DNA of 64,000 nt from Fibrobacter succinogenes (GTDB lineage: Bacteria; Fibrobacterota; Fibrobacteria; Fibrobacterales; Fibrobacteraceae). The position numbers were made by a program, and so were the translations under genes. This document shows positions 3,651-57,937 of the stretch, one piece after another. The notes under the pieces were generated by a model. The model was given only the letters and a program-made list of their open reading frames with translations. It had not been told where the DNA came from and searched no databases. Every line of letters starts with the position of its first letter. Position 1 is the stretch's first letter. The stretch lies in contig NZ_CACZDK010000004.1 of assembly GCF_902779965.1 (NCBI RefSeq), positions 62,001-126,000 of the forward strand, in the 5' to 3' direction.

Positions 3651-5318
3651 TTACTTTGTAGGATTAAAACTATCCTTCAAACCAACCGTACGGTTGAACA
3701 CGAGGTGACCCGGCTTACTGTCTTCGCTATCGAGGCAGAAGTAGCCCTGACGCATGAACTGGAAACGGTCTTCGAGCTTCGCGTCGGCGAGAGCGGGTTC
3801 CACCTTGGCCTGCTTAATAACCATGGAGTTCGGGTTCAGGTAATCGTGCCAGTCTTCACCTTCCGGGACCTGAGCAGGATCTTCGAGCGTGAACAAGTTA
3901 TCAATGAGGCGCACTTCGGCATCCACAGCGTGAGCTGCAGAAACCCAGTGGATCGTGCCCTTGACCTTGCGACCATCCGGAGATTCGCCACCCTTGCTGA
4001 GCGGGTCATAGACGCAGTGGATCACCTTGACCTTGCCGTCTGCATCCTTTTCGACGCTCTTGCAAGTGACAAAGTAAGCGCCCTTGAGGCGGACTTCGCC
4101 TTCCGGCTTCAAGCGGAAGTACTTCTTCGGCGGTTCTTCCATGAAATCGTCGGCTTCGATGTAGAGCACCTTGCCAAACGGAACTTCGCGCTTGCCGGCG
4201 TTCGGATCGTTCGGGTTGTTCTCGACTTCAATCATCTCGACCTTGCCTTCTTCCCAGTTGTCAATCACGAGTTTGACCGGGTCGATGACAGCCATCACGC
4301 GGTTAGCGGTCTGGTTCAATTCTTCGCGAATGCAGAAGTAAAGGAGGTTCACATCGACCATGGAGTCGGCCTTGGAAACACCGATGCGGCTGCAGAACTC
4401 GCGGATAGAGCTCGGCGTAAAGCCACGGCGGCGGAAACCGCAAACTGTCGGCATACGCGGGTCGTTCCAGCCAAGCACCGCCTTCGTCTGCACAAGTTCA
4501 AGGAGCTTGCGCTTACTCATCATTGTGTAAGTGAGGTTCAAGCGGGCAAATTCAATTTGCTGCGGGCGATTCTGCAAACCAAGTTCAATGAGGAACCAGT
4601 CGTAAAGCGGACGGTGGGCTTCGAACTCCAGCGTACAGATGGAGTGCGTGATGCCTTCGATCCAGTCGCTGATCGGGTGGGCAAAGTCATACATCGGGTA
4701 GATGCACCACTTGTCGCCCGTGCGGTGGTGCGTGCAATGCTTGATGCGGTAGATGACCGGGTCGCGCATGTTCATGTTCGGGCTTGCAAGGTCGACCTTG
4801 GCACGGAGGCACTTTTCGCCGTCAGCGTACTTGCCGTCGCGCATTTCGTGGAAGAGCTTCATGTTCTCTTCGACGCTGCGGTCGCGGTACGGGCTCGGGC
4901 GGCTGGGCTTGCCAGCATCGTTGCCACGGTATTCCTGCATTTCGTCGCGAGTCAAGTCTTCGACGTAAGCCTTGCCCATTTCAATCATCTTTTCGGCAAA
5001 GGCGTAAATCTGATCGTAGTAGTCGCTTGCAAAAAATTCTTCTTTCCATTCAAAGCCGAGCCACTTCACGTCTTCGCGGATGGAATCGACGTATTCCACA
5101 TCTTCCTTGGTCGGGTTCGTGTCATCGAAGCGGAGGTTCGTAAAGCCGCCGAACTTTTTGGCGGTGCCGAAGTTCAAGCAGATGGACTTGGCATGTCCAA
5201 TGTGAATGTAGCCGTTCGGTTCGGGCGGGAAACGCGTCAGCACGTGATCGCGCTTGCCGGTCTGGAGGTCGTTAACGATAATGTCCTGAATAAAATTCGA
5301 AGATTCGGGGATTTCCAT
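3651..5318 (-). CDS. glnS: Glutaminyl-tRNA synthetase
   Basis: This cytoplasmic class I aminoacyl-tRNA synthetase charges tRNA-Gln. The 555 aa are close to the E. coli length of 554. The class I signature [13 protein letters not shown] lies near residue 38 and the KMSKS-equivalent is MMSKRKLL near residue 268. The acceptor-binding and C-terminal anticodon-binding barrels complete the family layout. The ATG at 5318 has AAAGGA six to seven bases upstream. A direct glutaminylation route is therefore present. Upstream on the same strand is a two-hairpin repeat ending in the 18-base block (5355-5432), followed by TATATTTT as a likely -7/-10 element. Confidence 0.97.
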
Positions 5319-5354
5319 ATTTCAATCCTTTGATTTTTACAAGGGAAAATATAG

Positions 5355-5432
5355 AAAAGTGCGCAAGGTGAGTCATGCACGAAAACTTGTTTTCGTATAT
5401 GCGAACCGCAGCCACGGACGCCGAAGGCGTCA
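5355..5432 (-). repeat. Two-hairpin intergenic element upstream of glnS
   Basis: Read on the minus strand, hairpin 1 is GACGCCttcGGCGTC (5417-5431), then a CGTGGC/GCGG spacer. Hairpin 2 is ACGAAAACaaGTTTTCGT (5379-5396). The element ends in CCTTGCGCACTTTT (5355-5368), and a TATATTTT box follows before glnS. The order matches copies at 41183-41259 and 47345-47421, with different stem sequences. Confidence 0.75.
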
Positions 5433-5433
5433 A

Positions 5434-5457
5434 AAGTAGGAAGTAGGAAGTAGACAG
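5434..5457. repeat. Heptad tandem repeat AGTAGGA/AGTAGAC
   Basis: Consecutive 7-base units AGTAGGA, AGTAGGA, AGTAGAC occur here. The same units fill other gaps of the window (13374-13455, 27766-27830, 28632-28667, 50797-50832, 50975-51006, 57903-57937). Confidence 0.7.
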
Positions 5458-5477
5458 AAAATAGTGGCTAATGTTTA

Positions 5478-8400
5478 CTAGTCCATCACACAGCGGACGG
5501 AATTCCCATTAACTTTAAGGTCCTCGCCCATACTGATATCGCCATAAAAGTAACCCATTCCTACAATTAAAGCGTTGTCATCATCTAATTCCTTTGACGT
5601 CCAAAAATCCGTGCTAAAACCATTGATGCTGAAACTTCCTTTAGGGAACATTTCATCTGGAGGATTCCAACAGCCAACAGGCTGCACCGAGAAGCCATAC
5701 TCATCAGGACCACCGCCATTTATATCTTTATAACCAACCCAGCCTTCCGATGATTTAAGAGCGTTTGCGGCCGTAGTAGAATCCCCTACTGCATTAATTA
5801 GGGTTTTCCAATCCTTTTCCGTCGGCAAATGCCAACCCGCAGGGCACGCTTTCATAGCATCCGCCCAAGTATAGATACTTCCGAACTCAGCGCAATTTGT
5901 AGAATCAAAATCTAAGCACAAACTCTTTTCCGTTTTGAAGTTTAAGTTTTGAGCCAGCCAAGTCTGCGAACCGATTTTCACGGTCTTGTAAGTTTGTCCG
6001 TCACGGGAATCGACCAGTGAACCTTTTACGACACTCGATGGGGGTATTATAGAAGATGATTTCTGCTCTATTTTTTTGCCACCGTCTTTTTGCGAATAGT
6101 CCTTGATGCAACGGACATTAAGCGCATAGTACGTATAGCTATCCGTGCGAACAACACTATCTTTGCAATAGTCGAAACACATTTCAACTTCCATGGATTT
6201 ATCATCTTTTTCAGTCGTATGGAAACACGTTTTATACCCCTCTTTTTCGGTTACAGATCCAAATCCACGGAATACACCTACAGGACGCACAGTGAAACCA
6301 AATTCATCTGAGCCATTGCCATCTTTATCCAAACCAATTTTGGATTCGCAATCAAGCCAACCTTTTTTGGATTTCAGTTTTTTCCCAGCAACTGATGCTC
6401 CGCCCACAGCCAAGAACAAAGTATCCCATTCGGCTTCTGTAGGTAAATGCCAACCCACAGGACAAACCGTCTTCAAAGCTTGCCACTCATAAAGACGACC
6501 ATTATGGGCGCAGTTGGCAGAATCGTCATCATAACAATTACTGTGTTCTGTTTCGTACTTTATATTTTCGGCCATCCATGTGTACTTGCCAAAAGTAACG
6601 GTCTTGTAAGTTTGTCCGTCACGAGGGTCTTTCATAACACCCCATGCAGACGATTTTCCCGAAAGGAAATCCGATGTTTCCGTCGGTGCTTGCGGCGGAT
6701 CATTCTTTACACAACGAATGCTAAGCGATGAATTCTTAGTGATTTCTTCAATAGGTTTATCTTTCTGTCTATCATGCAAAACAAAAGCAAGCGCTTCATC
6801 CGCATCATATTTTGAAGAACTCCAGAAAAATGCGGCATTGTCCTTTCTATCATAACTATACTTATAAGGTTCATGTCTTAGACTCATTGGAAGTGCCGAA
6901 AAACCAAATTTATCCATACCATTACTGCCGTTTTTCCATCCCGTAACGGTCTTGAGTGCCACATGGGCAAAAGACGGACCACCAATGGTTTCTAAAAGGG
7001 TTCCCCATTCCTTGCTTGTCGGCAAATGCCAACCATCAGGGCAAATTCCCCGTACAGGTTCCGTCGGGAAGCATGCTTTTCTATAACCGCATCCCTTGCC
7101 ATTTTCGGAATACACGGCAGCGCTGTCCATCGCGAGAGACCAAGGATAAAGGCGGCCAAACTTGGAACACGTGATTACGTCATCAATACCGCATTCGCTA
7201 TATTCCGTTTCATAGTTCAAGTTTTCTGCCATCCAAGTTTGTTTGCCGATGGTGACAGTCTTGTAAATTTGTCCATCACGGGAATCTACGAGAAGGCTAG
7301 AATCAAGCTTTGAGCCTGAAGCGGCGACATTCGCTTGTTTTAAATGATTATCATCTAAATTTTCGTCCTTCACACAGCGAACCCTATTTCTTTCACCCTG
7401 TTTTTCGCTTGAGCTCCGATATGCCTTATCCGAATCACCATATACCCCTACGGAATACGCTAAACGATATCCATTTTCCGTAGAACTCCAATAACCACCG
7501 CCAGGGATTGCCGAAAAGCCATAATCATCCGTACCAATAGCAGTGCCATTCCACCCTGTTACAGTTTTAAGAGCCTTTCCTGCCGAGTCCATCCCGCCTA
7601 CAGAAGCAAACAGGACATTCCATTCGATAAGCGAAGGTAAATGCCAACCTGTCGGACAAATACCTTGTACCGGATAATTCGGAATGCAATTCTTTTCGGC
7701 ACCGCAACCCTTGGCATCCTGAGAATAGACTCCAGCACTATCCATGGCATCGCTCCATTTGTAATAACGCCCGTATTTATCGCAATAACTTGCACTATCC
7801 TTCTTTGTGCTGTCTTTGCTGCAGTAGCTATTTGGAGTCGCAAAGTTCAAGTTTTCCGCCATCCAAACCTGCTTGCCAATTTTTACGGTCTTATAGGTTC
7901 GACCATCACGGGCATCGGTAAGCGGAGAACCTTCTATCATCTTTTTCTTGCTGCCATCCGGCAAATCACCTTTGATGCAGCGAACAGGGAAACCATAGTC
8001 TTTAGATAAGGTATCAAAGAAAGCCTTATCGCTGTAATAAAGCAAGTACATAATATTCGCTTTTTCTTTGTCATTATCAAAGCTCCAGAAAAATGCACTT
8101 CGGCCCATTTTGCTATTCCAATCTCTTATAAAATAGCGGTCGTCCTGACCAAAAACGTTGATAGGATATGCAGAAAATCCGTATGCATCTGAACCATTTC
8201 CATGACCATACCATGCCATTGACGATTTAAGAGATTTACCAGCAACCGATTGTCCGCCCACGACTGCAAAAAGGGTATCCCAATCCACAAGCATAGGCAA
8301 GCGCCACCCCGTAGGGCAAGCCTCTTTCGCCAAGTTCCATGAATAGAGACGACCATTTTTAGCGCAGACACCTGTAGAGTCACCTCTGCAAATGCTTTTT

Positions 8401-11400
8401 TCCACGTTGTAATTAAGGTTTTGCGCCATCCAAGTCTGCTGGCCTATAGTAACGGTCTTGTAAACATGACCGTCGCGAGAATCGGTAAATATACCTTCGA
8501 CAACACCTTCAACACGATTCGGCGGAACCGCAGACGTAGCAACAATACGATTATCACTAACATTGTGTTGCACACTCTCATCTTTAGTTTTTCGTCTTTG
8601 ATCTTTAGCATTACTCAAGTCCAAGCCGTCCTTCACACAGCGAACAGACTTTTTATATTGTTTATTACTTTCCAACAGATTTGCATACTCACCGCGCATA
8701 GCAAGGTGAAGACCATGCCCAACACGATCAAAATGATAAACATCCTCGTTTGTCAAGCCCATGTAATAAGCTTCATGCTCTCCTTCAAATTTCGTAGAAC
8801 TCCAAAATTCAGCCTTATCATTTTTTTCGGTAAACGAGCCCTCATAACTTTTATCATAAACTACAGGGAGAGCCGCAAATCCATAACCATCAGAGCCATT
8901 CTTTTCACCAGCCCAGCCTTTTTTCGACTTAAGCACTGTTCCCGCTATTTTTTCGCCACCCACTTCAGAAATTAAAGTCGTCCATTCTCTTAACGACGGC
9001 AAATGCCAACCATCAGGGCATACGCCTTGAACAGGAGGCTTCGGGTTACACCGTTGCGTATGACCCCAACCATCACCATCCTCATCAATCCACTTGTCTT
9101 CACATTGAATGGATTCATACCACGTATAGAAACGCCCATATTTTTTGCAATTTGCAACACTATCGCCATGGCAGGAACTATTCTTTGTTTCATAGTTCAA
9201 GTTTTCGGCCATCCAGGTCTGCGAACCGATCTTTACCGTCTTATAGGTATGACCATCGCGTGCATCTTTGAGAGGATCGGCCTTAACCACCCCAACTTTG
9301 CTAAGAACTTTAGGAGCATCATCTTTAAGGCAACGGACAGAATACCTAGATTCACTACCTCCATGACGCCAATCAACATCATCCAATTTCAAAGAAATAG
9401 CTTGTTTGCAACCAGCATAGTATCGGCACTCTGCGGTACTCCACCAATATGTATCATACCCTCCACTGTAGTACTTATTGTTTTTAGAACCGGTACCCGC
9501 AGGGAGTGCCGAAAAGCCGTAATCATCCGTACCAACGATACTATCCCTCCAACCCGTTCTAGACTTAAGAGCTGTACCGGCAACACTGCGATTACCAACG
9601 GCAACAAAAAGATCTTCCCAATCTTCTAGCGAAGGCAAGTGCCAACCAACCGGGCAAGCCCCCTTGGCATCATACCATTCATAAAGACGACCATATTGAG
9701 TACAGTTGTTCGGATTGTCGTTATAACAAAAACTTTCTTTTGTCTTGTACCTGAGATTTTCGGCCATCCACGTTTGAGAACCAATCTTCACAGTCCTGTA
9801 AGTTTGTCCGTCACGAGAGTCTATCAATAAAGCGGAATCAGGAACAACATTACTCTTTTCCTTCACATCTTGGTTGGTGCGTGGCGATGTCTCTCGCGTT
9901 TCATCTTTAAGGCAACGAATAGAAGAAGCACTGCTATCTAAACCGCTTGTACGATCGGTTTTACCTTCGAGCATGGAAACAGTTCTCAAGCAATTTTCTT
10001 TAGAATCACACTCCGTAGAAGTCCAGAAATCGGCGGCTTCGCCCAACTTTTTGAACTCACGATTTTTCCATGATGATTTGTAGCCCGCCGGGAGCACAGA
10101 AAAGCCATACAAATCAGAGCCTTTTTCTTCATCCTTCCAATCGGTCTTGGACTTAAGAACCAAATCCGCAATAAATTGCCCGCCCACCGTAACAAACAAC
10201 TCATCCCATTCCTGTAACGATGGCAGGTGCCATCCCACAGGGCAAACATTCTTTGCCGCAGCACGTCCATAAAGGCGACCGTATTTGGGGCAGTTACTCG
10301 AATCATGAGCAAAACAGAAGCTGAGTTCCGTTTCGTAATTCATATTCTCGGCCATCCATGTCTGAGCGCCGATTTTTATGGTCTTGTACATTTTTCCATC
10401 ACGTTTATCCGTGAAAGTTCCTTGGTTTGCAGAGATATTCGCACTCAAAACGGAATCAACATGAATTTGAGTCTTGGAGGAATCGACTACGATTTTATCG
10501 TGCTTTTTTTTCTCCACACGTTCAGCCTCTCCCAGAAGGCATCGAACATGCATGCTCTCTGATTTGGCGTTTCGTTTTAAATTTGCAGAACCATCCTTAG
10601 AGGGCATATCGATGTGATAAGCGTTATATTTATCGTCCTCCGTCGAGCTCCAATAATCTGGCTCCAACGCCAAGAAACCCAATTCATCCGTGCCATCGAC
10701 TCGGTAAAATTCAATACCCGGGCCACGCATTCTTTCTCCGCCAAAACCACTTGCTTTTCCCCTGAGCATCTTACCAGCAACAGAATTTCCTCCAGCAAAA
10801 GAAATCAGCGTTTTCCATTCGGCTCGTGTCGGCAAATGCCAACCATCCGGGCAAGCATTTACAGCGGCATCCCATGTGTAATAACGTCCTGATTCAGTAC
10901 ATATCACTAAATTACAGGAACTTTTTTCAACGCTATAGTTTAAATTTTCCGCCATCCAGGTCTGCGTACCGATTTTTACCGTCTTGTACACTTGATTGTC
11001 GCGCAAATCGACAAGAAAATCCCCTTCCATTCGAAAACCCCGAGCAGCAGGAATTGTCGCATTCGAAGACGAACTCACAGACTCTGCGGAACTGTTTAAC
11101 TCTGCAGAACTGCTGGAATTTGGAGTTTCAGCCTTGACGCAACGAACAGAAAGCCAACGATCATCACCCACACTTTCAATATTGGCCTTGCCACTATAAT
11201 ATTGAAGGTACATAGTACCCCCATCATTCCAAAAGAACGCTGATTTACCCTCAGTACCGTAATTTGATTCTCCATACTTAGCCCCTGCAGGGAGAGCAGC
11301 GAACCCGTAATCGTCTGTACCATTTCCGCCGCCAATCCAGCCTTCCGCAGATTTAAGATATTTACCGGCAACAGATTCCCCACCTATCGAAAAAATCAGA

Positions 11401-11744
11401 ACGCTCCAATCGAGTGCCGTCGGCAAACGCCAATCAGCCGGACAAGCCTCTTTTGCCGATTTCAATGAGTAAAGGCGACCATATTTAACACAGTTAAGAG
11501 CCTTATCGCCATAGCAGTAACTACCAGGCATTTCATAGTTCATATTTTCGGCCATCCAAGTCTGTTCGCCAATTGTCACCGTTTTATAAATCTGTCCGTC
11601 ACGGGAATCAGTAAACGTTCCTTTGGCAACAGCAACAACCTTACTTTTTTTTAGCGATTCATTCATCGAATCGCCACATGCCATAAGCATTGAAAAAATT
11701 ACCGCGCAAGACAAAGAAGATAATACAATACGCTTAATCATCAT
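5478..11744 (-). CDS. Giant lipoprotein with ten FISUMP domains
   Basis: This 2088-aa protein has a lipoprotein signal (hydrophobic stretch, then SMLMAC-GDS), so it is probably anchored in the outer membrane. It carries ten copies of the F. succinogenes major paralogous domain, starting near residues 50, 252, 452, 647, 832, 1092, 1282, 1492, 1712 and 1915. Each copy has DxRDGQxYKTVxIGxQTWMAENLNY, a C..NC..YGRLY segment, CPxGWHLPxxxEW, GxDxYGFxALP, and a closing VRCVKD or similar; linkers are Ser- or charge-rich. Copies 5, 7 and 8 have an extra Cys-containing insert before the CPxGWHLP core. The two ATGs at 11744 and 11741 follow GGAGG, and the gene lies 16 bases after the two-domain FISUMP gene, so the pair forms an operon. 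The domain's function is not established; a surface binding or display role is inferred. Confidence 0.9.
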   Translation of the reverse strand: MMIKRIVLSSLSCAVIFSMLMACGDSMNESLKKSKVVAVAKGTFTDSRDGQIYKTVTIGEQTWMAENMNYEMPGSYCYGDKALNCVKYGRLYSLKSAKEACPADWRLPTALDWSVLIFSIGGESVAGKYLKSAEGWIGGGNGTDDYGFAALPAGAKYGESNYGTEGKSAFFWNDGGTMYLQYYSGKANIESVGDDRWLSVRCVKAETPNSSSSAELNSSAESVSSSSNATIPAARGFRMEGDFLVDLRDNQVYKTVKIGTQTWMAENLNYSVEKSSCNLVICTESGRYYTWDAAVNACPDGWHLPTRAEWKTLISFAGGNSVAGKMLRGKASGFGGERMRGPGIEFYRVDGTDELGFLALEPDYWSSTEDDKYNAYHIDMPSKDGSANLKRNAKSESMHVRCLLGEAERVEKKKHDKIVVDSSKTQIHVDSVLSANISANQGTFTDKRDGKMYKTIKIGAQTWMAENMNYETELSFCFAHDSSNCPKYGRLYGRAAAKNVCPVGWHLPSLQEWDELFVTVGGQFIADLVLKSKTDWKDEEKGSDLYGFSVLPAGYKSSWKNREFKKLGEAADFWTSTECDSKENCLRTVSMLEGKTDRTSGLDSSASSIRCLKDETRETSPRTNQDVKEKSNVVPDSALLIDSRDGQTYRTVKIGSQTWMAENLRYKTKESFCYNDNPNNCTQYGRLYEWYDAKGACPVGWHLPSLEDWEDLFVAVGNRSVAGTALKSRTGWRDSIVGTDDYGFSALPAGTGSKNNKYYSGGYDTYWWSTAECRYYAGCKQAISLKLDDVDWRHGGSESRYSVRCLKDDAPKVLSKVGVVKADPLKDARDGHTYKTVKIGSQTWMAENLNYETKNSSCHGDSVANCKKYGRFYTWYESIQCEDKWIDEDGDGWGHTQRCNPKPPVQGVCPDGWHLPSLREWTTLISEVGGEKIAGTVLKSKKGWAGEKNGSDGYGFAALPVVYDKSYEGSFTEKNDKAEFWSSTKFEGEHEAYYMGLTNEDVYHFDRVGHGLHLAMRGEYANLLESNKQYKKSVRCVKDGLDLSNAKDQRRKTKDESVQHNVSDNRIVATSAVPPNRVEGVVEGIFTDSRDGHVYKTVTIGQQTWMAQNLNYNVEKSICRGDSTGVCAKNGRLYSWNLAKEACPTGWRLPMLVDWDTLFAVVGGQSVAGKSLKSSMAWYGHGNGSDAYGFSAYPINVFGQDDRYFIRDWNSKMGRSAFFWSFDNDKEKANIMYLLYYSDKAFFDTLSKDYGFPVRCIKGDLPDGSKKKMIEGSPLTDARDGRTYKTVKIGKQVWMAENLNFATPNSYCSKDSTKKDSASYCDKYGRYYKWSDAMDSAGVYSQDAKGCGAEKNCIPNYPVQGICPTGWHLPSLIEWNVLFASVGGMDSAGKALKTVTGWNGTAIGTDDYGFSAIPGGGYWSSTENGYRLAYSVGVYGDSDKAYRSSSEKQGERNRVRCVKDENLDDNHLKQANVAASGSKLDSSLLVDSRDGQIYKTVTIGKQTWMAENLNYETEYSECGIDDVITCSKFGRLYPWSLAMDSAAVYSENGKGCGYRKACFPTEPVRGICPDGWHLPTSKEWGTLLETIGGPSFAHVALKTVTGWKNGSNGMDKFGFSALPMSLRHEPYKYSYDRKDNAAFFWSSSKYDADEALAFVLHDRQKDKPIEEITKNSSLSIRCVKNDPPQAPTETSDFLSGKSSAWGVMKDPRDGQTYKTVTFGKYTWMAENIKYETEHSNCYDDDSANCAHNGRLYEWQALKTVCPVGWHLPTEAEWDTLFLAVGGASVAGKKLKSKKGWLDCESKIGLDKDGNGSDEFGFTVRPVGVFRGFGSVTEKEGYKTCFHTTEKDDKSMEVEMCFDYCKDSVVRTDSYTYYALNVRCIKDYSQKDGGKKIEQKSSSIIPPSSVVKGSLVDSRDGQTYKTVKIGSQTWLAQNLNFKTEKSLCLDFDSTNCAEFGSIYTWADAMKACPAGWHLPTEKDWKTLINAVGDSTTAANALKSSEGWVGYKDINGGGPDEYGFSVQPVGCWNPPDEMFPKGSFSINGFSTDFWTSKELDDDNALIVGMGYFYGDISMGEDLKVNGNSVRCVMD
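5478..11744 (-). repeat. Ten tandem ~0.55-0.78 kb coding repeats
   Basis: The RDGQ-encoding segment recurs near 11590, 10985, 10386, 9800, 9246, 8466, 7896, 7264, 6606 and 5997. The core GQTYKTV..GxQTWMAENLNY is conserved while linkers and the middle of each unit diverge. The repeats may recombine with each other or with the two copies in the upstream gene. Confidence 0.85.
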
Positions 11745-11760
11745 TCAAACCTCCACAAAA

Positions 11761-13143
11761 TTAATCCTTAACACAACGAACTGAGCGACTATACTCAATT
11801 CTCGAAACATTCCAATACGCAATAAAACTATCATACAAGAAATCCACATCTTTCACAAACGAAGAGTTCGATTGATCCGTAGTCCAAAAACCGCCATAAC
11901 GACCTTCCGTTTTATATCCCCAAGCACCTTCCTTATACCCACCCGGAAGAACGGAAAAACCGTAATCATCGGAACCTACGACACTTATCGGTTTATCTAA
12001 TTTGTCTCTATGAACATAATCACCCTTTTTCACTTCTTCGACATCAACAACTTTATTCGAAGGAGCCCATTTTTCCTTGGCTTTCAGAAATTTTCCGGCC
12101 CTCAAGAATCCATCGCGATACCACTTTTTCCCTCCCACAGCAACAAATAAAGTTTTCCATTCCTCAAGCGAAGGAATGTGCCAACCAAGAGGGCAAACAC
12201 CACGCACAGGAAATTTCGGAGTGCACATACCACGATTATCATTAGAATAGCCACATCCCTTGCCATTTGTAGAAAAGACAGCCGCGCTATCCATAGCATC
12301 CTCCCAATTGTAAAGGCGACCATATTTGACGCAATTACTATCCGCATTGTTGTAACAGGAACTGCTATCCGTTTTGAAATTAAGGTTTTGCGCCATCCAA
12401 GTTTGCGCACCTATAGTTACGGTTTTATAAGTTTGTCCATCTCGTGCATCGATGAGGAGATTACTCTCTCGTCTTTCGTCTCTACCCTCTCGTCTGACAT
12501 CCCCCTTAACGCAACGAACCGAAAATCCACTCTTTTTTAGACCACTATTTAAATCAGCCCTTTCGCTGTAGTATTGCAAAAACAAGCCATACGCATTTTC
12601 CGCATTGTCCTCCTTAGAACTCCAGAAAAATGCATAAGCGCTATCGCTATTGTAATTGCCATTGTCAAAACGCACTCCCGCCGGAATCGCCGAGAATCCA
12701 TAATCATCGGTACCATTTCCAAGGCTAAGCCAGCCACTTGCCGATTTAAGGAATTTTCCACCCGAAATTTGGCCGCCCACAGTCATAAGCAACAAAGTCC
12801 AATCTTCATCTGTTGGCAAACGCCAACCATCCGGGCACGATTCCATTGCCGCGCTCCACGTATAAAGCCGCCCGAAATTCGAACAGTTATCTTCATTATC
12901 GTCATGGCAATAACTTTCATCGGCCTTGAAATTCAAGTTCTCAGCCATCCAAACTTGCTCGCCAATTTTAATGGTCTTGTAAATTTGACCATCGCGGGAA
13001 TCCTTGAACGATTCATAATTTAGGGATTTATTAAAACCGCTTTCTTCGCTTTTCTGCGGCAAATTTTTAGCGGAACTGCAAGCACTCACAACAGCAAGCA
13101 GCGAAGCGCTAACAACAGATATCAAAACAACTCGTTTATGCAT
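11761..13143 (-). CDS. Lipoprotein with two FISUMP domains
   Basis: This 460-aa protein starts at the ATG at 13143 (MHKRVVLISVV). The ATG nine bases upstream (13152) sits directly against the AAAGG ribosome site, so the inner start is preferred. The lipobox is AVVSAC-SS. FISUMP domains begin near residues 51 and 236. The second has the long insert type (AMDSAAVFSTNGKGCGY, then CTPKFPVRGVCP) also seen in copies 7 and 8 of the giant neighbour, which suggests exchange between the genes. It is the first gene of the operon with the giant protein 16 bases downstream. A TATTTTTG box at 13175-13182 is a candidate promoter. Confidence 0.88.
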   Translation of the reverse strand: MHKRVVLISVVSASLLAVVSACSSAKNLPQKSEESGFNKSLNYESFKDSRDGQIYKTIKIGEQVWMAENLNFKADESYCHDDNEDNCSNFGRLYTWSAAMESCPDGWRLPTDEDWTLLLMTVGGQISGGKFLKSASGWLSLGNGTDDYGFSAIPAGVRFDNGNYNSDSAYAFFWSSKEDNAENAYGLFLQYYSERADLNSGLKKSGFSVRCVKGDVRREGRDERRESNLLIDARDGQTYKTVTIGAQTWMAQNLNFKTDSSSCYNNADSNCVKYGRLYNWEDAMDSAAVFSTNGKGCGYSNDNRGMCTPKFPVRGVCPLGWHIPSLEEWKTLFVAVGGKKWYRDGFLRAGKFLKAKEKWAPSNKVVDVEEVKKGDYVHRDKLDKPISVVGSDDYGFSVLPGGYKEGAWGYKTEGRYGGFWTTDQSNSSFVKDVDFLYDSFIAYWNVSRIEYSRSVRCVKD

Positions 13144-13174
13144 AAAACCCATCCTTTACTTAGGGTAATAAATA

Positions 13175-13182: not shown

Positions 13183-13269
13183 GCTAATAAACTACCTCTC
13201 TTTTTAGGTAAAAAGATTTTTCGGAAATTCAAAAAATTCACTGGATGGGACTAGCCCCAACCTCTTTGG

Positions 13270-13308
13270 CTCAGTCATACCCAAACAAGTTTGCCCGCGA
13301 CACTCGCC
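13270..13308 (+). repeat. Partial two-hairpin element
   Basis: CTCAGTCATACC, then CAAACaaGTTTG, then CGCGACACTCGCC. It parallels the minus-strand copy at 50836-50881 (CTCGGTCATGCC, CAAAACaaGTTTTG, CGCGACACTCGAC). The first hairpin and the final TTGCGCACTTTT are missing. Confidence 0.5.
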
Positions 13309-13373
13309 TTTGGAGGTTGTCTATCGGGCTGCGCCCTCCAGGATGACAACCCTAAGCTCTAAGTTCTAACCAA

Positions 13374-13455
13374 CTTCCGACTTCCCACCGCCTACTGCCT
13401 ACTGTTTACTAACCACCAACCACTTCCTACTGCCTACTGTCTACTTCCTACTGCC
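13374..13455. repeat. Heptad tandem repeat array
   Basis: About ten units of CCTACTG/CTTACTG/TCTACTT type, the reverse complement of the AGTAGGA/AGTAGAC units elsewhere. Unit length is 7 bases with some slippage. Confidence 0.65.
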
Positions 13456-13515
13456 GAGAAATCACTGGATCCTTCGGGCATTCGCCCTCAGGATGACGTT
13501 GCAAATGTTCTATAT

Positions 13516-26982: not shown

Positions 26983-27780
26983 GTGGGAAAATTACGTTTT
27001 GTTTTGCCAAATACTTTTACAAGCCTGAACTTTTTGCTTGGAGTTTTTTCCATTTGCTGGACAACCGGAGCGTTCAGTTCTTTTAGTACGGCAGACCAAA
27101 TCCGCATGGGTGCATACTTTGTCATGTTGTGTGCCCTTTTTGACAAGCTTGACGGATTTGCGGCACGTCTTGTGAACGCCAGTTCTGAATTCGGAGCCCA
27201 ATTTGACAGCCTTGCAGACTTGATTGCATTCGGTCTCGCCCCGGCTTTCTGCTTTTTCTTTACCTACAAGATTTATGCACCGGAATGGTTCCAGAACCAC
27301 GGCCTCCTGATGACGTTCGCCCTCGCAGTTTACGTGCTCTGCGCCGCCATGCGCCTTGCCAAGTACAACGCCTGCGATTCTGACACGTATCATCATCACT
27401 TTTCTGGGCTTCCGTCCACTTTTGCCGGCATGATTAACGCCGTGCTTATCGTGTACCTCAAGAGCAAGGGCGTTTTTGCAGACCCGAGCAGTTTCCTCTT
27501 CTGGGCACCCATTATCGTTTTCACCGTAACAGGATTCTTGATGGTAAGCCCGTTGTTCCTCCCGAAGCTCCAGCCGCGCAAGAACAAGGCATTCAACATT
27601 TTCCAGATTGTATTGATTCTCCTTACCTACGTTGCCGGAATCCTCTTCTACAACGAAAAGGTGCCGTACATCCTTGAATATCTGTTGCTCCTCGGCGTAA
27701 GCTACATGGTAATCGGTTTTGGTGTAGGCCTTGCCAACCGCAAACAAATCATCGAAGAAGCGATGAAGAGTAAGAAGTAA
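26983..27780 (+). CDS. pssA: CDP-diacylglycerol-serine O-phosphatidyltransferase
   Basis: This inner-membrane enzyme makes phosphatidylserine, the precursor of phosphatidylethanolamine. The CDP-alcohol phosphotransferase motif DGx2ARx8Gx3Dx3D is complete (DGFAARLVNASSEFGAQFDS plus LAD). Several membrane helices follow over 265 aa. The start is GTG at 26983, seven bases after AAGGAG. The final codons (KSKK, stop) lie inside a heptad-type repeat, so the C-terminus may have been shaped by repeat insertion. A TATCTTTA box near 26950 could be the promoter. Confidence 0.92.
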   Translation: MGKLRFVLPNTFTSLNFLLGVFSICWTTGAFSSFSTADQIRMGAYFVMLCALFDKLDGFAARLVNASSEFGAQFDSLADLIAFGLAPAFCFFFTYKIYAPEWFQNHGLLMTFALAVYVLCAAMRLAKYNACDSDTYHHHFSGLPSTFAGMINAVLIVYLKSKGVFADPSSFLFWAPIIVFTVTGFLMVSPLFLPKLQPRKNKAFNIFQIVLILLTYVAGILFYNEKVPYILEYLLLLGVSYMVIGFGVGLANRKQIIEEAMKSKK

Positions 27781-27830
27781 GAAGTAGACAGTGGTTAGTG
27801 GTTAGTCAATAATCGTTAGTCACTAGTTAT
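27766..27830. repeat. Heptad-type repeat spanning the pssA stop codon
   Basis: GAGTAAGAAGTAAGAAGTAG, then ACAGTGGTTAGTGGTTAGTC. The repeat begins inside the last codons of pssA and continues downstream. Confidence 0.55.
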
Positions 27831-28631: not shown

Positions 28632-28667
28632 GACAAGTAGACAGTAGGAAGTAGACGGTAGGAAGTT
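28632..28667. repeat. Heptad tandem repeat upstream of mpaA
   Basis: AGTAGAC, AGTAGGA, AGTAGAC, GGTAGGA units in direct succession just before the mpaA start. Confidence 0.65.
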
Positions 28668-28699
28668 AATATCATTGCAGCCAAGAACTGCTTACAGTG

Positions 28700-38188: not shown

Positions 38189-38908
38189 CTAAAGCACTTG
38201 AGGACGCCGAAGAGATACTTCGTACAGATTAACAGGAAATGTAAAAGTTGCGCCTTTCTGCGTTTTCGGGAACACCCAACGACTGACAGATTCTTTTATT
38301 TCTTCATTCATGGCGCTAAAGGGGCTATTTTCAGCGATTGTAGTCGATGTAATCTCAACTTTTTCAACCTTGCCGCTTGAAGCAATTTTCAACGTCAAAA
38401 CAATTTTCCCTTCAAATTCATTTGCAGAATCCGAACGATTCCTTATATTCTTGGAGCAGACATAACGTAAGCCAAGAATTCGTTGGCGATATACCTTTAA
38501 AAAAGCTTGAACATCAATATCAAGCCCTTTGATGACAACATTTTTTTCAGACAATGGCTTTATACGACACTGGCGAACATACTCACGAGCACAACCATCA
38601 CAAACAACATCCGAAAGAACGCCATAAAGAGCCACTGTTTGCAATAGTCCATCCAAGTTAGGTTTTTCAGCTTTTACAGGAAAACTATCACGATAAATTT
38701 TAGAGATTTCAACCTTTTTCAACTTTATCGGATAAAAAATCGACTTTTCCTTGAGGCTATCAGACTGCTGTTTATTAACATCCTCCGCTTTAGGATTATC
38801 TGTTTTAGGAGCCTCAGCTTTTTTTTCAGCATCACCGCAACCAGCCCACAATACCGCCGCGGTCATGAGTGCCACTTTGCCAAGAAATTTGCTAAAGTTT
38901 TTTGCCAT
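38189..38908 (-). CDS. Lipoprotein with AgmX/PglI-type C-terminal domain
   Basis: This 239-aa lipoprotein has lipobox VLWAGC-GDA and an acidic, Lys-rich linker. The C-terminal ~100 residues have the AgmX/PglI layout, related to the TonB C-terminal fold: YRQRILGLRYVCSKN, FEGKIVLTLKIASSGKVEKV, SRWVFP. Extra cysteines appear at CDGCAREYVRQC. In relatives this domain is found on envelope-spanning motility or energy-coupling proteins. Here it is on a lipoprotein, so the partner is unknown. It is one of three intact tandem paralogs. Confidence 0.75.
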   Translation of the reverse strand: MAKNFSKFLGKVALMTAAVLWAGCGDAEKKAEAPKTDNPKAEDVNKQQSDSLKEKSIFYPIKLKKVEISKIYRDSFPVKAEKPNLDGLLQTVALYGVLSDVVCDGCAREYVRQCRIKPLSEKNVVIKGLDIDVQAFLKVYRQRILGLRYVCSKNIRNRSDSANEFEGKIVLTLKIASSGKVEKVEITSTTIAENSPFSAMNEEIKESVSRWVFPKTQKGATFTFPVNLYEVSLRRPQVL

Positions 38909-38966
38909 GTTTTATAAATAACAAAATTCAAATCAGAAAAATCAGCAGGAAAATAAATTTTTTCGA

Positions 38967-39941
38967 TTATTTAGGCTGCGACGAAGTTTTGTCTTCTTCA
39001 TAAAAACGAATAGGCACATAAACAGTCGTCTCAGATTCAACCTTAGAGAAAGTCCATCGACTTGCTGCGTTTCTTATCTCTTCATCAAAACTTTTAACAC
39101 CCGTCGTCGATTTCTTTATTGAAGATTTTTTTACGGTTCCATCAGCAGCAATCGTCAACTTTAAAACGATTTTTCCCTGAAATGTATTAGCAGAATTTTT
39201 CTTGATGAATTTTCTGTATATAAGCCTTAAACCCGGACTTCTTTGTCGAAGAACACGCTCAACTCTAGAAACCATATCTTGATTAATAGTTTGTTTGTCT
39301 GCGAATTCAATATTTTGATAAAGAACTTTCACAAACCATCTAGATGAAATCGTATTCGAATAATCCAATAACGATAACCCATCATCTACAGAAGCGTTTC
39401 CAGGACCATTATTAAATCGACCTTCAGAACCATCATTAAAGCCAAGACGACGTAGTCTATTCCTATCCGCAATAACACCATAATAACACATAACAGAGCC
39501 TAAATCTGATCTAGCTTTCAAAATCGAATCACGATTTTTTGCAAAAATAAACCTCCGCATAAGAGCATATTGATATCCGTCTTTCTTTTTTTCTACATCA
39601 TTCCATTCAATCGGGAAAAAAGCCTTCATCAAGCTATCTCTAGTCCGCTGTTTTTCAAGCAGTTTCGCGGAATCCAGCAATACGACTGTTTGGGAATTTG
39701 CATCAAGAGAATCTTTAGGATTCTCAATCGCAAGAGAATCGTCTTTTCCCGATACATGCGGCAACGCCGCAGAATCAGACGATTCAACGGAATTGGATAT
39801 TTCAGTTACACCGAAACTATTCGAAGCGTTGCTTACCGGCTTTTCATTTTTAGAATCATTATCGACATTGCAACCAGCCCACAGCACCGCTGTAGCCAAC
39901 AATGCAATTTCACTAAAATATTTGCTAAAGAAATTTGCCAT
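38967..39941 (-). CDS. Lipoprotein with AgmX/PglI-type C-terminal domain (paralog)
   Basis: This 324-aa paralog is nearly identical at the N-terminus to the next upstream gene (MANFFSKYFSEIALLATAVL, WAGC). The linker repeats SNSFGVTEISNSVES and LDANSQTVVLLDSAK. The C-terminal domain shows RRSPGLRLIYRKF, FQGKIVLKLTIAADGTVKKS and ASRWTF. The middle contains an extra ~100 residues with RRLGFNDGSEGRFNNG. Recent duplication of the signal and linker with divergence of the middle is apparent. Confidence 0.75.
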   Translation of the reverse strand: MANFFSKYFSEIALLATAVLWAGCNVDNDSKNEKPVSNASNSFGVTEISNSVESSDSAALPHVSGKDDSLAIENPKDSLDANSQTVVLLDSAKLLEKQRTRDSLMKAFFPIEWNDVEKKKDGYQYALMRRFIFAKNRDSILKARSDLGSVMCYYGVIADRNRLRRLGFNDGSEGRFNNGPGNASVDDGLSLLDYSNTISSRWFVKVLYQNIEFADKQTINQDMVSRVERVLRQRSPGLRLIYRKFIKKNSANTFQGKIVLKLTIAADGTVKKSSIKKSTTGVKSFDEEIRNAASRWTFSKVESETTVYVPIRFYEEDKTSSQPK

Positions 39942-40010
39942 AATTTAATAGGGAGTTAGAAGAATACTGCAGGAAGTTATCAAAAAAAATTAAGAGTCTG
40001 TTCTAAGCAT

Positions 40011-40850
40011 TCAATCCTTATAGAACGTAAACGGGATCTTAAATGTTCCCTGAACATTTTTTTCGCCAAAATTCCAATATTTCACAGTTTTCTTAAGTTC
40101 TTCGTCAAATTCATCATAGCCCGTTGTCGAAGAATCAATTTCAACATTTTCAACGAAACCGTTCAAATTTATCTTAATTTTCAAAACAACAGTTCCATTA
40201 AATTCTGGATTCTTTTTCAAAAACATGTTGTAAATAAGACGCACAGTAGATGATCGTTGGCGAACCACATTTAAAACAGCCGAGACACTATCATTGACAA
40301 CAATAATATCCGATTCATTTATTTCTTGCACACGACCTTTAGCAGCAGAGTTTAGATATCTTATTACATCATCTCGCGATGTAACAACTCCATAAAGAAA
40401 AACATTTTCTCCAAAATTTTTCCTAACACGCCTCATTTCTTTTAACTGCATCTGCACTAGACACTTCAAAATACCACGAGTATCAAAACGTTGACAATCT
40501 TTACCGGATCTTTCAATAGGGAAAAAAACTTTCATCAAGCTATCTCTAGTCCGTTGCACTTCAAGCTGTTTTGCAGAATCCAACAATACGACCGTTTGGG
40601 CGTTCGCATCAAGAGAATCTTTAGAAATCTCGTTCGCAAGAGAATCGTCTTTTTCCGTTACATTCTGTAACGCTGCAGATTCAGTCGATTCAACGGAATT
40701 GGATATTTCAGTCACACCGAAACTGTTCGAAGAGTTGCTTACCGACTTTTCATTTTTCGAATCATCATCGACATTACCGCAACCAGCCCACAGCACCGCT
40801 GTAGCCAACAATGCAATTTCACTAAAATATTTGCTAAAGAAATTTGCCAT
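40011..40850 (-). CDS. Lipoprotein with AgmX/PglI-type C-terminal domain (paralog)
   Basis: The 279-aa form starts at ATG 40850 (MANFFSKYF), matching the paralog; ATGs further upstream (40856, 40865) add residues absent from relatives. Lipobox VLWAGC-GN. The linker (NSFGVTEISNSVESTESAAL) is shared with the neighbour. The C-terminal domain has RQRSSTVRLIYNMFLKKN, FNGTVVLKIKINLNGFVENV and VKYWNFG. It is the first gene of the minus-strand array; the hairpin-rich region lies just upstream. Confidence 0.75.
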   Translation of the reverse strand: MANFFSKYFSEIALLATAVLWAGCGNVDDDSKNEKSVSNSSNSFGVTEISNSVESTESAALQNVTEKDDSLANEISKDSLDANAQTVVLLDSAKQLEVQRTRDSLMKVFFPIERSGKDCQRFDTRGILKCLVQMQLKEMRRVRKNFGENVFLYGVVTSRDDVIRYLNSAAKGRVQEINESDIIVVNDSVSAVLNVVRQRSSTVRLIYNMFLKKNPEFNGTVVLKIKINLNGFVENVEIDSSTTGYDEFDEELKKTVKYWNFGEKNVQGTFKIPFTFYKD

Positions 40851-40980
40851 GGCCATAAATAACAAAATTCAAAATAAACAATCAATGCAAAAAAATTTCT
40901 TTTACAATTTTTTTTCACATCATTTTGGCACAAAGGCTTTTCAGAACTTTCCATTGAGATGATGAGATTTTTGCGTTTTT

Positions 40981-41260
40981 CGCACTTCTCGCGCGTCGCT
41001 CGCCTTGCACGCTTTTACTAAATTGGCACGCTTCGCGTGCATTTGACATTTGCAATGTCATGCAGCTGCATCTCGACCATAGACGATGTAAAAACATCGT
41101 CTGCGGCACTCGATTTGCGTGCATTTAGTACGGCTCGGACATGCTCGTTCAAGCAAGCTTGACTCGCGCGTCGCTCGCTTTTGACGCCTTCGGCGTCCGT
41201 AGCGGCAGCTCAAATATGCGAAAGCAAGCTTTCGCGCATTCCTCGCCTTGCGCACTTTTA
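40981..41260 (+). repeat. Hairpin-rich array upstream of miaB
   Basis: No ORF here is supported. Stems in order are GCACGCttcGCGTGC (41026-41040), TGACATTtgcAATGTCA (41044-41060), GACGATGTaaaaACATCGTC (41082-41101), TCAAGCaaGCTTGA (41149-41162), GACGCCttcGGCGTC (41183-41197) and GCGAAAGCaaGCTTTCGC (41218-41235). The array ends in CTCGCCTTGCGCACTTTT (41242-41259), followed by TAAATTTG and the miaB ATG. The last two hairpins plus the 18-base block form the same unit as at 5355-5432 and 47345-47421. With its flanks this gap runs 40851-41274. Confidence 0.75.
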
Positions 41261-41261
41261 C

Positions 41262-41269
41262 TAAATTTG
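41262..41269 (+). promoter_or_regulatory. Candidate -7 element (TAAATTTG) of miaB
   Basis: This is an exact TAnnTTTG match beginning three bases after the repeat block and ending five bases before the miaB ATG at 41275. No Shine-Dalgarno lies between. Confidence 0.45.
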
Positions 41270-47325: not shown

Positions 47326-47503
47326 CTCGCCTTGCGCACTTTTTGATGTCTTCGACATCCGTAGCTTCGGCTCGGTAATGAGAAAGCTAGCTTTCTCGCT
47401 ACTCTCGCCTTGCGCACTTTTGACGCTTTCAGCGTCCGTGGCAGCGGCTCGGTAATAAATTCGCGCAAGCACGATTTTGCTACTCTCGCCTTGCGCACTT
47501 TTG
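47326..47503 (+). repeat. Tandem two-hairpin units, ~80-base period
   Basis: CTCGCCTTGCGCACTTTT occurs three times, starting at 47326, 47404 and 47486 (periods 78 and 82). Between the first two are GATGTCttcGACATC (47345-47359) and GAGAAAGCtaGCTTTCTC (47380-47397). Between the second and third are GACGCTttcAGCGTC (47422-47436) and a weakened second stem. CGT(A/G)GC and CGGCTCGGTAAT link the hairpins. The array ends directly at the TATATTCA element of the next gene. Confidence 0.8.
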
Positions 47504-50796: not shown

Positions 50797-50832
50797 AGTA
50801 GGAAGTAGGAAGTAAGAAGTAGACAGTTAGAC
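50797..50832. repeat. Heptad tandem repeat after argS
   Basis: AGTAGGA, AGTAGGA, AGTAAGA, AGTAGAC and AGTTAGAC units. Another run in the opposite sense is at 50975-51006, just past the FISUMP gene end. Confidence 0.65.
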
Positions 50833-50835
50833 AAA

Positions 50836-50881
50836 TGCGTAGGTCGAGTGTCGCGACAAAACTTGTTTTGGCATGACCGAG
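50836..50881 (-). repeat. Partial two-hairpin element
   Basis: On the minus strand this reads CTCGGTCATGCC, then CAAAACaaGTTTTG (50857-50870), then TCGCGACACTCGACC. It matches 13270-13308 and lacks the terminal 18-base block. A GCGCGcttCGCGC hairpin at 50784-50796 is nearby. Confidence 0.5.
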
Positions 50882-50930
50882 ACCAGCATTTGGTACTTGA
50901 GCAAAGCGAAAGTACTAGTAGACAGTAAAA

Positions 50931-50963
50931 AAAAAACGAGAGCTTTTTAAGCTCTCGTTTTTT
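50931..50963. terminator. Bidirectional terminator between argS and the FISUMP gene
   Basis: AACGAGAGCTT (50935-50945) pairs with AAGCTCTCGTT (50949-50959), with an A run before and a T run after. Confidence 0.85.
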
Positions 50964-51003
50964 GCATTTGGAAAACTTCCTACCGACTACTTCCTACTGT
51001 CTA

Positions 51004-52125
51004 CTAATTACCGTTAATGCATCTCACAGAATAACCATTATTCCTTGCAGTTGCAGGGACAAGCTGGCGAACCATCTGATCACTCATGCGGCCCATAGCC
51101 CAAAGCCAAATCGTTTCGTTGCGGCCATTCTGAGCACTCCAGAAACCAGCATATTCGCCCATATCTTCGTAACGTACCGTAGACCTGCCAAGGAGCTTGC
51201 GATAGCCCGAAGAGAAAACAGTAAAGCCATATTCGTCGGTACCGCCACCGCCCTGCCAGCCAGTCGTAGCCTTCATCTTGGAAGCAAAGTTACCGCACTT
51301 ATCAACGCCATCATAGCAACCCGTGAGGCCCTTGAGCATATCAGACCATTCGCGGTCACGCGGCAAGTGCCAGCCTTCAGGGCAAGCCTTGCGAGCGCCT
51401 TCCAAGTCGTACAAGCGACCACTACGAGCGCAGTAAGAATCCTTGTCTTCATAGCACCAGGAATGACCTTCGACATTGTAGTTCACGTTCTGAGCAAACC
51501 ATTCACGACCTTCCACCTTGATAATGCGATAAACTTGTCCATCGCGCGGGTCCGTAAAAGACGTAGACTTGTCACGAATCATAGCGCGATGTTCCTGCTC
51601 GGCCTTACGGAACGCCGAAAGCTGTTCACGCTTGTATTTCTGACGACCTTCGAGTTCAGCCACCCAAGCCTTCTGGGCCTGCGGATTTGTAAACTTTATA
51701 CGCAAATCATAAATATTGAACAAGTCGTTACCGCAAGCAAAATCGACACCGGCAATATTGATAATTTGTTCTTGATTACCAAAGCGACGCGGCTTGTCAA
51801 AGTAAGAAACCCACGCTTCCATGGTGTTGCGGCAGTTGTCGTAGAAATTCGGATCTTCGACCAACTTTGCCGGAATTGTCATGTTACCCGCAACAGAAAA
51901 ATCAAACTTGTCATCCAAAATGCGGAATGAAACCGGTTGGACATTCTTGTAATGCGTGTATTCACCAAAACGGATATCCCCGTCAATTTTGGCAGCAGCA
52001 TAATCGCCCTGTCCTTCGGCATTAAAAATAGCATCCCACGTTTTCGGCGGAGCCGCAAAAACCTGGGCAACGGACAGCATGAGCACTGAGCAAATTCCTA
52101 GTTTGAACAATTTAATTCTCTCCAT
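51004..52125 (-). CDS. Secreted single-domain FISUMP protein
   Basis: This 373-aa protein has a Sec signal (LGICSVLMLSVAQVFA-AP). The N-terminal half (~20-185) is unlike the other FISUMP proteins: it has DNCRNTMEAWVSYFDKPRR and a charged helical stretch (ELEGRQKYKREQLSAFRKAE). One FISUMP domain starts near residue 194 with DPRDGQVYRIIKVEGREWFA, then CPEGWHLPRDREW, EYGFTVFSSG, and ends YSVRCINGN. It differs from the operon copies by W-F-A-Q-N and the absence of a lipobox. GGA lies ~8 bases before the ATG. Confidence 0.85.
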   Translation of the reverse strand: MERIKLFKLGICSVLMLSVAQVFAAPPKTWDAIFNAEGQGDYAAAKIDGDIRFGEYTHYKNVQPVSFRILDDKFDFSVAGNMTIPAKLVEDPNFYDNCRNTMEAWVSYFDKPRRFGNQEQIINIAGVDFACGNDLFNIYDLRIKFTNPQAQKAWVAELEGRQKYKREQLSAFRKAEQEHRAMIRDKSTSFTDPRDGQVYRIIKVEGREWFAQNVNYNVEGHSWCYEDKDSYCARSGRLYDLEGARKACPEGWHLPRDREWSDMLKGLTGCYDGVDKCGNFASKMKATTGWQGGGGTDEYGFTVFSSGYRKLLGRSTVRYEDMGEYAGFWSAQNGRNETIWLWAMGRMSDQMVRQLVPATARNNGYSVRCINGN

Positions 52126-57901: not shown

Positions 57902-57902
57902 T

Positions 57903-57937
57903 ATAGTAGACAGTAGGAAGTAGGAAGTAGACAGTAT
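57903..57937. repeat. Heptad tandem repeat after the helicase gene
   Basis: AGTAGAC, AGTAGGA, AGTAGGA, AGTAGAC units directly after the stop codon. A reversed partial copy (CTTCCTACTTC) is at 58029-58039, just before map. Confidence 0.65.

Follow-up and report, generated by a model that had tools for sequence, protein, structure and literature searches.

Covarying palindromic repeats of Fibrobacteraceae, probably mobile elements recognized as a folded single strand

Integron attC sites are folded single strands in which the outer features are conserved and the inner palindrome varies, and the Rickettsia palindromic elements (RPE), mobile palindromic repeats of ~100 nt that lie between genes and have no known transposase, also occur in frame inside coding genes. 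REP elements carry at one end a defining tetranucleotide, GTAG or CGTC, that is conserved and unpaired, and no dedicated transposase is known for the CGTC REPs (PMC3733652). TnpA-REP requires the conserved stem mismatches of the REP, and REP, IS200/605 and integrons illustrate that folded single-stranded DNA with stem irregularities can serve as substrate (PMC8266576). The YPAL/RU-2 element of Yersinia is palindromic, lacks TA termini, gives duplications of varying length and targets sites at or beside dyad symmetry (PMC2229807).

The family described here was found in a 64-kb window (the whole stretch of DNA analysed) from Fibrobacter succinogenes, and it groups with short interspersed palindromic mobile repeats of the REP, RPE and YPAL kind, although it lacks the tags by which REPs, MITEs or attC sites are defined. 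Like REPs and REPINs with their RAYTs, the units are short, intergenic, imperfect palindromes with more than 100 copies per genome, strand-specific features and conserved stem mismatches; unlike them, the Fibrobacter unit has two hairpins, is about twice as long, and has neither a conserved GTAG or CGTC tag nor a Y1 transposase in its host. Among 94 copies, GTAG lies near the outer stem arm (X) in 15, and CGTC lies downstream in 28, then within a paired arm. The ends are the outer arm X and a terminal hairpin and are not mutual inverted copies, as the terminal inverted repeats of a classical MITE would be, and the target duplications are variable (0–4 nt) rather than of fixed length. The likeness to RPE is one of kind and not of homology: a palindromic mobile repeat, also present in frame inside genes. 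RPE differ in taxon and sequence, whereas the Fibrobacter copies share one core and fold despite their divergence, nest, and sit at promoter boxes. YPAL/RU-2, although likewise palindromic with variable-length duplications, is 168 bp long, and no comparable hypervariable compensated stems appear in the accessible part of its description (PMC2229807). Integron attC sites share the folded single strand with a conserved outer part and a variable inner palindrome, but the Fibrobacter units lack R boxes in 94 of 94 copies (R'', RYYYAAC, 0/94; R', GTTRRRY, 0/94), are tandem or solitary, and accompany no cassette genes.

Eight copies lie in the window, including one that is truncated and one nested within another. 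These copies and their surroundings are as follows.

3651–5318, minus strand: glutamyl/glutaminyl-tRNA synthetase gene (Pfam), downstream of the 5355 unit
5346–5353, minus strand: putative −7 box TATATTTT abutting the 5355 unit (from sequence; a TAnnTTT-like box is common to relatives)
5355–5435, plus strand: type-1 unit, active (folding) strand, flanking AAAA target copies included (best R1 hit, 101.6 bits)
5359–5364, plus strand: 5' arm X of its outer stem, GTGCGC, with partner GCCAC at 5411–5415 (folds, consensus)
5379–5396, plus strand: its inner palindrome, ACGAAAA-CTTG-TTTTCGT (sequence, folds)
5417–5431, plus strand: its terminal hairpin, GACGCC-gaa-GGCGTC (sequence, folds, consensus)
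13242–13320, minus strand: diverged unit, X = CAACCTC (R1 hit, 20.7 bits; core 13270–13306)
41017–41182, minus strand: type-2 unit, X' = ACTAAAT, split by a nested element (core descriptor, 41134–41177; intact homologue at locus L143)
41035–41044 and 41117–41126: direct repeats GCGTGCATTT flanking the nested element
41045–41116, minus strand: 72-nt element nested in the type-2 unit (filled versus empty site in L143; R1 hit, 54.3 bits)
41179–41259, minus strand: type-1 unit upstream of miaB (R1 hit, 93.9 bits; empty site in L150), with terminal hairpin 41183–41197 and inner palindrome 41218–41235
41262–41269, plus strand: putative −7 promoter box TAAATTTG directly beside the 41179 unit, conserved among relatives
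41275: start of miaB (MiaB-like domains by Pfam)
47326–47343, minus strand: truncated copy, outer arm and start of core only (exact 18-mer; sequence)
47341–47421, minus strand: type-1 unit, tandem copy 1, GATGTC hairpin (R1 hit, 98.2 bits)
47418–47502, minus strand: type-1 unit, tandem copy 2, GACGCT hairpin, 22-nt inner palindrome (G000:C4:109418-109502, 90.1 bits; core 47448–47488)
50831–50906, plus strand: CAAATGC-subfamily unit within an AGTAGGA-type repeat tract (R1 hit, 30.1 bits; core 50845–50881)

A sequence-only reading of the window had placed units at 5355, 41183 and 47345; they lie there, and their shared plan is visible in the sequence. The stems that it listed are present, but the GACGCT/AGCGTC pair belongs to the fourth unit (47418–47502) and to none of the three, and the region 40981–41260 contains, besides the unit named, an element of a second type with a third nested inside it. 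Further copies that it did not list are those at 13242–13320 and 50831–50906 and the truncated one at 47326–47343. That the family is real, as it proposed, follows from counts far above the reversed and shuffled controls. The shared 18-mer CTCGCCTTGCGCACTTTT occurs six times in the window at up to three mismatches, against 0.19 expected. A core descriptor (CGAR N NNN GC, palindrome, AT N'N'N' YGAG), in which the inner palindromes were left unconstrained, gave seven cores in the window, none in the reversed window and none in 20 Markov shuffles. The 5355 unit fails this descriptor, having CGAA in place of the required GAG, yet is the top covariance-model hit.

Other repeats share the window. 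AGTAGGA/AGTAGAC-type heptamer tracts lie at 5428–5472, 13380–13465, 27762–27806, 28633–28671, 50797–50827, 50914–51025 and 57902–57935, and similar CTCGTCT tracts adjoin −7 boxes in relatives. Repeated modules of about 600 bp occur in a very large ORF (2088 aa; 5478–13152, minus strand) and in the ORF beside it, a Fib_succ_major protein, and paralogous ORFs at 38189–40865 (minus strand), one with a weak TonB_C match, have near-identical 5' ends (two copies 100% over 72 nt).

Every copy folds on one strand in a constant order: the outer stem X/X', which is variable, then a core that is conserved, the inner palindrome and a short terminal hairpin. The core is GGCGAG..GC / AT..CGAGCC. Where GGCGAG faces CGAGCC, three Watson–Crick pairs are followed by tandem mismatches (G.A/A.G) and then by a closing pair; a three-base stem then leads to GC facing AT, which gives a C.A mismatch and a G.T pair. 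In the three units listed by the earlier reading the outer stem is GTGnGC with GCnAC. The two-hairpin plan read earlier holds for its hairpins, but it had missed this outer stem, which spans the second hairpin, and the units fold better and more fully on the opposite strand. The AAGGCGAG strand was taken as the active, folding strand because the other would carry T.C mismatches in the core. The irregularities are kept, in 126 and 121 of 134 copies for the G.A/A.G columns and in 130 of 134 for the G.T step. The inner palindrome is near-perfect, with 7 or 9 bp, and is 18 or 22 nt long in 80 of 94 copies; the 94 copies have 76 distinct inner palindromes.

The paired stem changes seen earlier in three units extend to strong covariation. 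In 126 distinct host copies, standard pairs fill 95.6% of cells, a figure inflated by the fitting of the alignment to the structure, and shuffled copies reach 64.0%. For covariation the score is 0.740, compared with 0.207 (sd 0.007) when shuffled and at most 0.091 with partners slid by 1–3 columns, and double changes are seen in 24 of 25 pairs. Independently, in host loci totalling 318 kb the descriptor found 96 cores, and none in the reversed sequence; this count and the slid controls demonstrate that the effect is real. Outside the conserved G.T step, the active strand has 82 G.T wobbles and 24 A.C cells (core 34:4, outer stem 27:10, terminal hairpin 7:7), an excess that arises partly from choosing the set with a model of the active strand and that is absent in the terminal hairpin. 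The inner stem (63 distinct palindromes of 18 or 22 nt) has 458 Watson–Crick pairs, 5 G.T, 2 A.C and 38 other mismatches, the last mostly at two or three positions; being almost pure Watson–Crick, it is unlike a typical RNA-selected stem.

A covariance model built from 11 copies gave at least 139 matches in the host genome at E ≤ 10 (best 150 of 2790 candidates scored), and the true copy number may be higher. With the strict pattern the host genome yielded 119 cores (3 when the pattern was reversed), and four other well-assembled members of the genus yielded 58, 37, 56 and 29 (reversed 3, 11, 11 and 4); the 18-mer occurs 17 times at up to two mismatches in the host genome and not at all when reversed. 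All 80 genomes of the genus that were searched contain the family, and among 168 genomes of the phylum the matches are confined to Fibrobacteraceae, in the genus itself and five sister genera (g1, g5, g6, g7, g10, g11), with no match in g2, g3, g4, g8 and g9. At least 80 public genome loci match, all titled Fibrobacter, Fibrobacteraceae, Fibrobacterales or Fibrobacteria among the matches listed. A phage origin was rejected, there being no match to the element in IMG/VR viral contigs. Rfam identified only tRNAs in the window and nothing relevant at E ≤ 1 in 17 loci, and no known family was reached at gathering score; as the earlier reading had supposed, no described family with this plan emerged from Rfam or from the literature outside a 2017 list of 224 candidate structured RNAs. 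Some contig ends of the assembly fall at these elements. A second, larger repeat (GCGTCGGCC ... CCGAGCTGGGGCCCCGCCCGCATGACGTACTT), which has no Rfam match, often hosts elements nested at one internal position (host loci L036, L079, L081, L084, L085, L093, L096, L105, L112, L113 and L115).

Empty sites, orthologous or paralogous, were found for many copies (L055 vs L022; L150 vs L144/L148; the window 41179 unit vs L150; the nested 41045 element vs L143; L269 vs L317; L325). The comparisons show clean insertions of about 72–83 nt with duplications of 0–4 nt, usually at A runs. Among the targets are −7 boxes, other copies of the element and coding sequence, where several of the insertions are in frame. 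The type-2 copy at L055 reads GTGCGCAAA, element (TTTAGTAAAAGG...GGAGCGC), AAAGATAG, where the empty L022 has GTGCCCAAAGATAG, a 3-nt duplication; on the gene's strand it lies inside a −7 box, TATC|TTTG, and the ACTAAA end of the element restores TAAATTTG. The 41179 unit sits at AAAA with an AAAAG repeat, and the L269 insertion falls directly after a stop codon with AA duplicated. The type-2 host of the nested 41045–41116 element is intact in L143; the 10-nt direct repeats there (41035–41044/41117–41126) are the nested element's own outer arm and are longer than the other duplications. This repeat and the comparison of L016 with L049 suggested that the outer stem is copied from the target, but X and X' travel with the element at L055 vs L022 and L269 vs L317, which rules this out. 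Intragenic insertions are in frame at L121 (78 nt, in a PD-(D/E)XK nuclease gene), L300 (81 and 75 nt) and L127 (78 nt), and plausibly at L042 (81 nt); at L067 and L101 (80 and 83 nt) the frame is not kept. L101 and L067 (1792) are one site at a gene's 3' end, filled in two species, with differing inner palindromes and terminal hairpins. These comparisons of sites show clean insertion, and from them we infer that the family is mobile.

The sequence-only reading had suggested that the element may act as RNA or as a cruciform bound by a protein; action of either kind at genes is not supported. A structured RNA (riboswitch-like leader, attenuator or sRNA), spread by duplication and keeping its stems for expression of the neighbouring gene, would suit the strong covariation, the tolerance of G.T on one strand, a tandem G.A motif such as RNAs are known to contain and the adjacency of many copies to promoters. 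Type-1 units adjoin a −7-like box (AAAnnTA) in 19 of 49 cases, against a background of 4.6%, which fits a target preference for the A runs there, or tolerance. With respect to flanking genes, the active strand is sense in 28 cases, antisense in 29, convergent in 31 and divergent in 14, with 21 copies inside predicted ORFs, and it is antisense at both the miaB and the tRNA-synthetase promoters. Most orthologous promoters have no element: it is present in about 4 of 29 relatives at miaB and in 2 of 29 at the tRNA synthetase (filled L177/L180, empty L178/L183). Upstream of the miaB −7 box the DNA is almost wholly unrelated between the 29 relatives, while the gene is 85–95% identical among the loci listed; the box is kept as TATCTTTG or TAAATTTG in nearly all, and the TAnnTTT-like box of the tRNA-synthetase gene is likewise common to relatives with otherwise unrelated upstream DNA. 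Since copies take every orientation relative to genes and most orthologous promoters have none, a role as mRNA leader or regulator site is unlikely. A terminator was rejected, as the T run precedes the hairpin, so that neither strand yields a hairpin followed by a T run. Copies nested in others or in frame inside genes, and the lack of an Rfam match, also speak against a structured RNA. The covariation itself is not proof of an RNA role here, because the inner stem is nearly free of wobble pairs, orientation is unbiased, promoters are mostly empty and insertions are clean; we consider an RNA function improbable. Separately, of 27 PD-(D/E)XK_2 / Transposase_31 (Rpn-like) genes, 9 have an element within 500 bp, where about 5.5% would be expected (in the host genome, for example, at L121, L042, L043, L045 and L110), a proximity that may reflect tolerance or a functional link.

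The covariation might instead be mutational, template switching between hairpin arms having repeatedly perfected the palindromes of an inert repeat. The nearly perfect inner palindromes with very few G.T or A.C intermediates, and the lack of strand bias in the terminal hairpin, are what this would give. For the inner and terminal stems no other objection is as strong, while for the core its force is smaller. Such a process should, however, also remove the core's irregularities (G.A/A.G, C.A and G.T), yet some 90% or more of copies retain them, and stem changes at orthologous filled sites are one-sided in six cases and double in two, although the cases are few. As an account of the whole family it has a small chance of being right. 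Least probable is that a chromosomal protein (nucleoid, gyrase or promoter regulator) binds the units as duplex DNA or cruciform and that they multiplied as its regulon or as structural sites. Although the units are palindromic, intergenic, of high copy number and often beside −7 boxes, a dyad site would keep its sequence while these stems are hypervariable (76 distinct palindromes), the core wobble bias is strand-specific (34:4), and presence is polymorphic at orthologous genes.

The explanation that we favour, and think probable, is that these are non-autonomous mobile elements of about 72–83 nt, confined to Fibrobacteraceae, recognized in trans as a folded single strand and inserted at A/T runs. 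Recognition of this kind is suggested because the shape is kept while sequence is free, the irregularities are retained, the core is asymmetric between strands and insertions are clean. Every copy has to fold on one strand into a long, interrupted hairpin, built of outer stem, core with tandem G.A mismatches, C.A/G.T step and inner palindrome, with a short hairpin after it; trans-acting machinery would recognize this folded strand by shape and core. This strand could be single-stranded DNA exposed at replication, or an RNA copy. Copies would then be inserted at short A/T runs with duplications of 0–4 nt, stem sequence would drift freely so long as pairing persists, and copies at promoters would be tolerated where insertion leaves or rebuilds the −7 box TAnnTTTG.

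Some observations count against this explanation. The duplications are short and variable (0–4 nt, one apparent 10 nt), whereas a classical transposase gives one fixed length; the G.T excess is in part an effect of the selected set and is nil in the terminal hairpin; and no mobilizing enzyme was found. The host genome has no Y1 transposase (PF01797), Y1 is patchy in the family (44/111), and the sampled Y1 loci of relatives are not flanked by elements, so that RAYT/IS200 mobilization was rejected, no RAYT flanked by the repeats having appeared at these loci. Reverse transcriptase, also considered, is patchy (31/111), and none of the host loci examined carries a larger autonomous element with the same ends. 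More tentatively, the unit may be a fold-recognized miniature mobile element whose single strand is copied by undescribed Fibrobacteraceae machinery, giving RNA-like compensatory evolution in DNA and insertion that spares itself at −7 boxes.

Covariation is usually taken as proof of a functional RNA, and here it is extreme in what appears to be mobile repeat DNA, which makes the family a test case for distinguishing structure-selected DNA from RNA. With dozens to more than 100 copies per genome in 80 species, fold-guided mobility could be traced comparatively. In a key fibre-degrading gut lineage, these repeats reshape promoters and add peptide segments to proteins.
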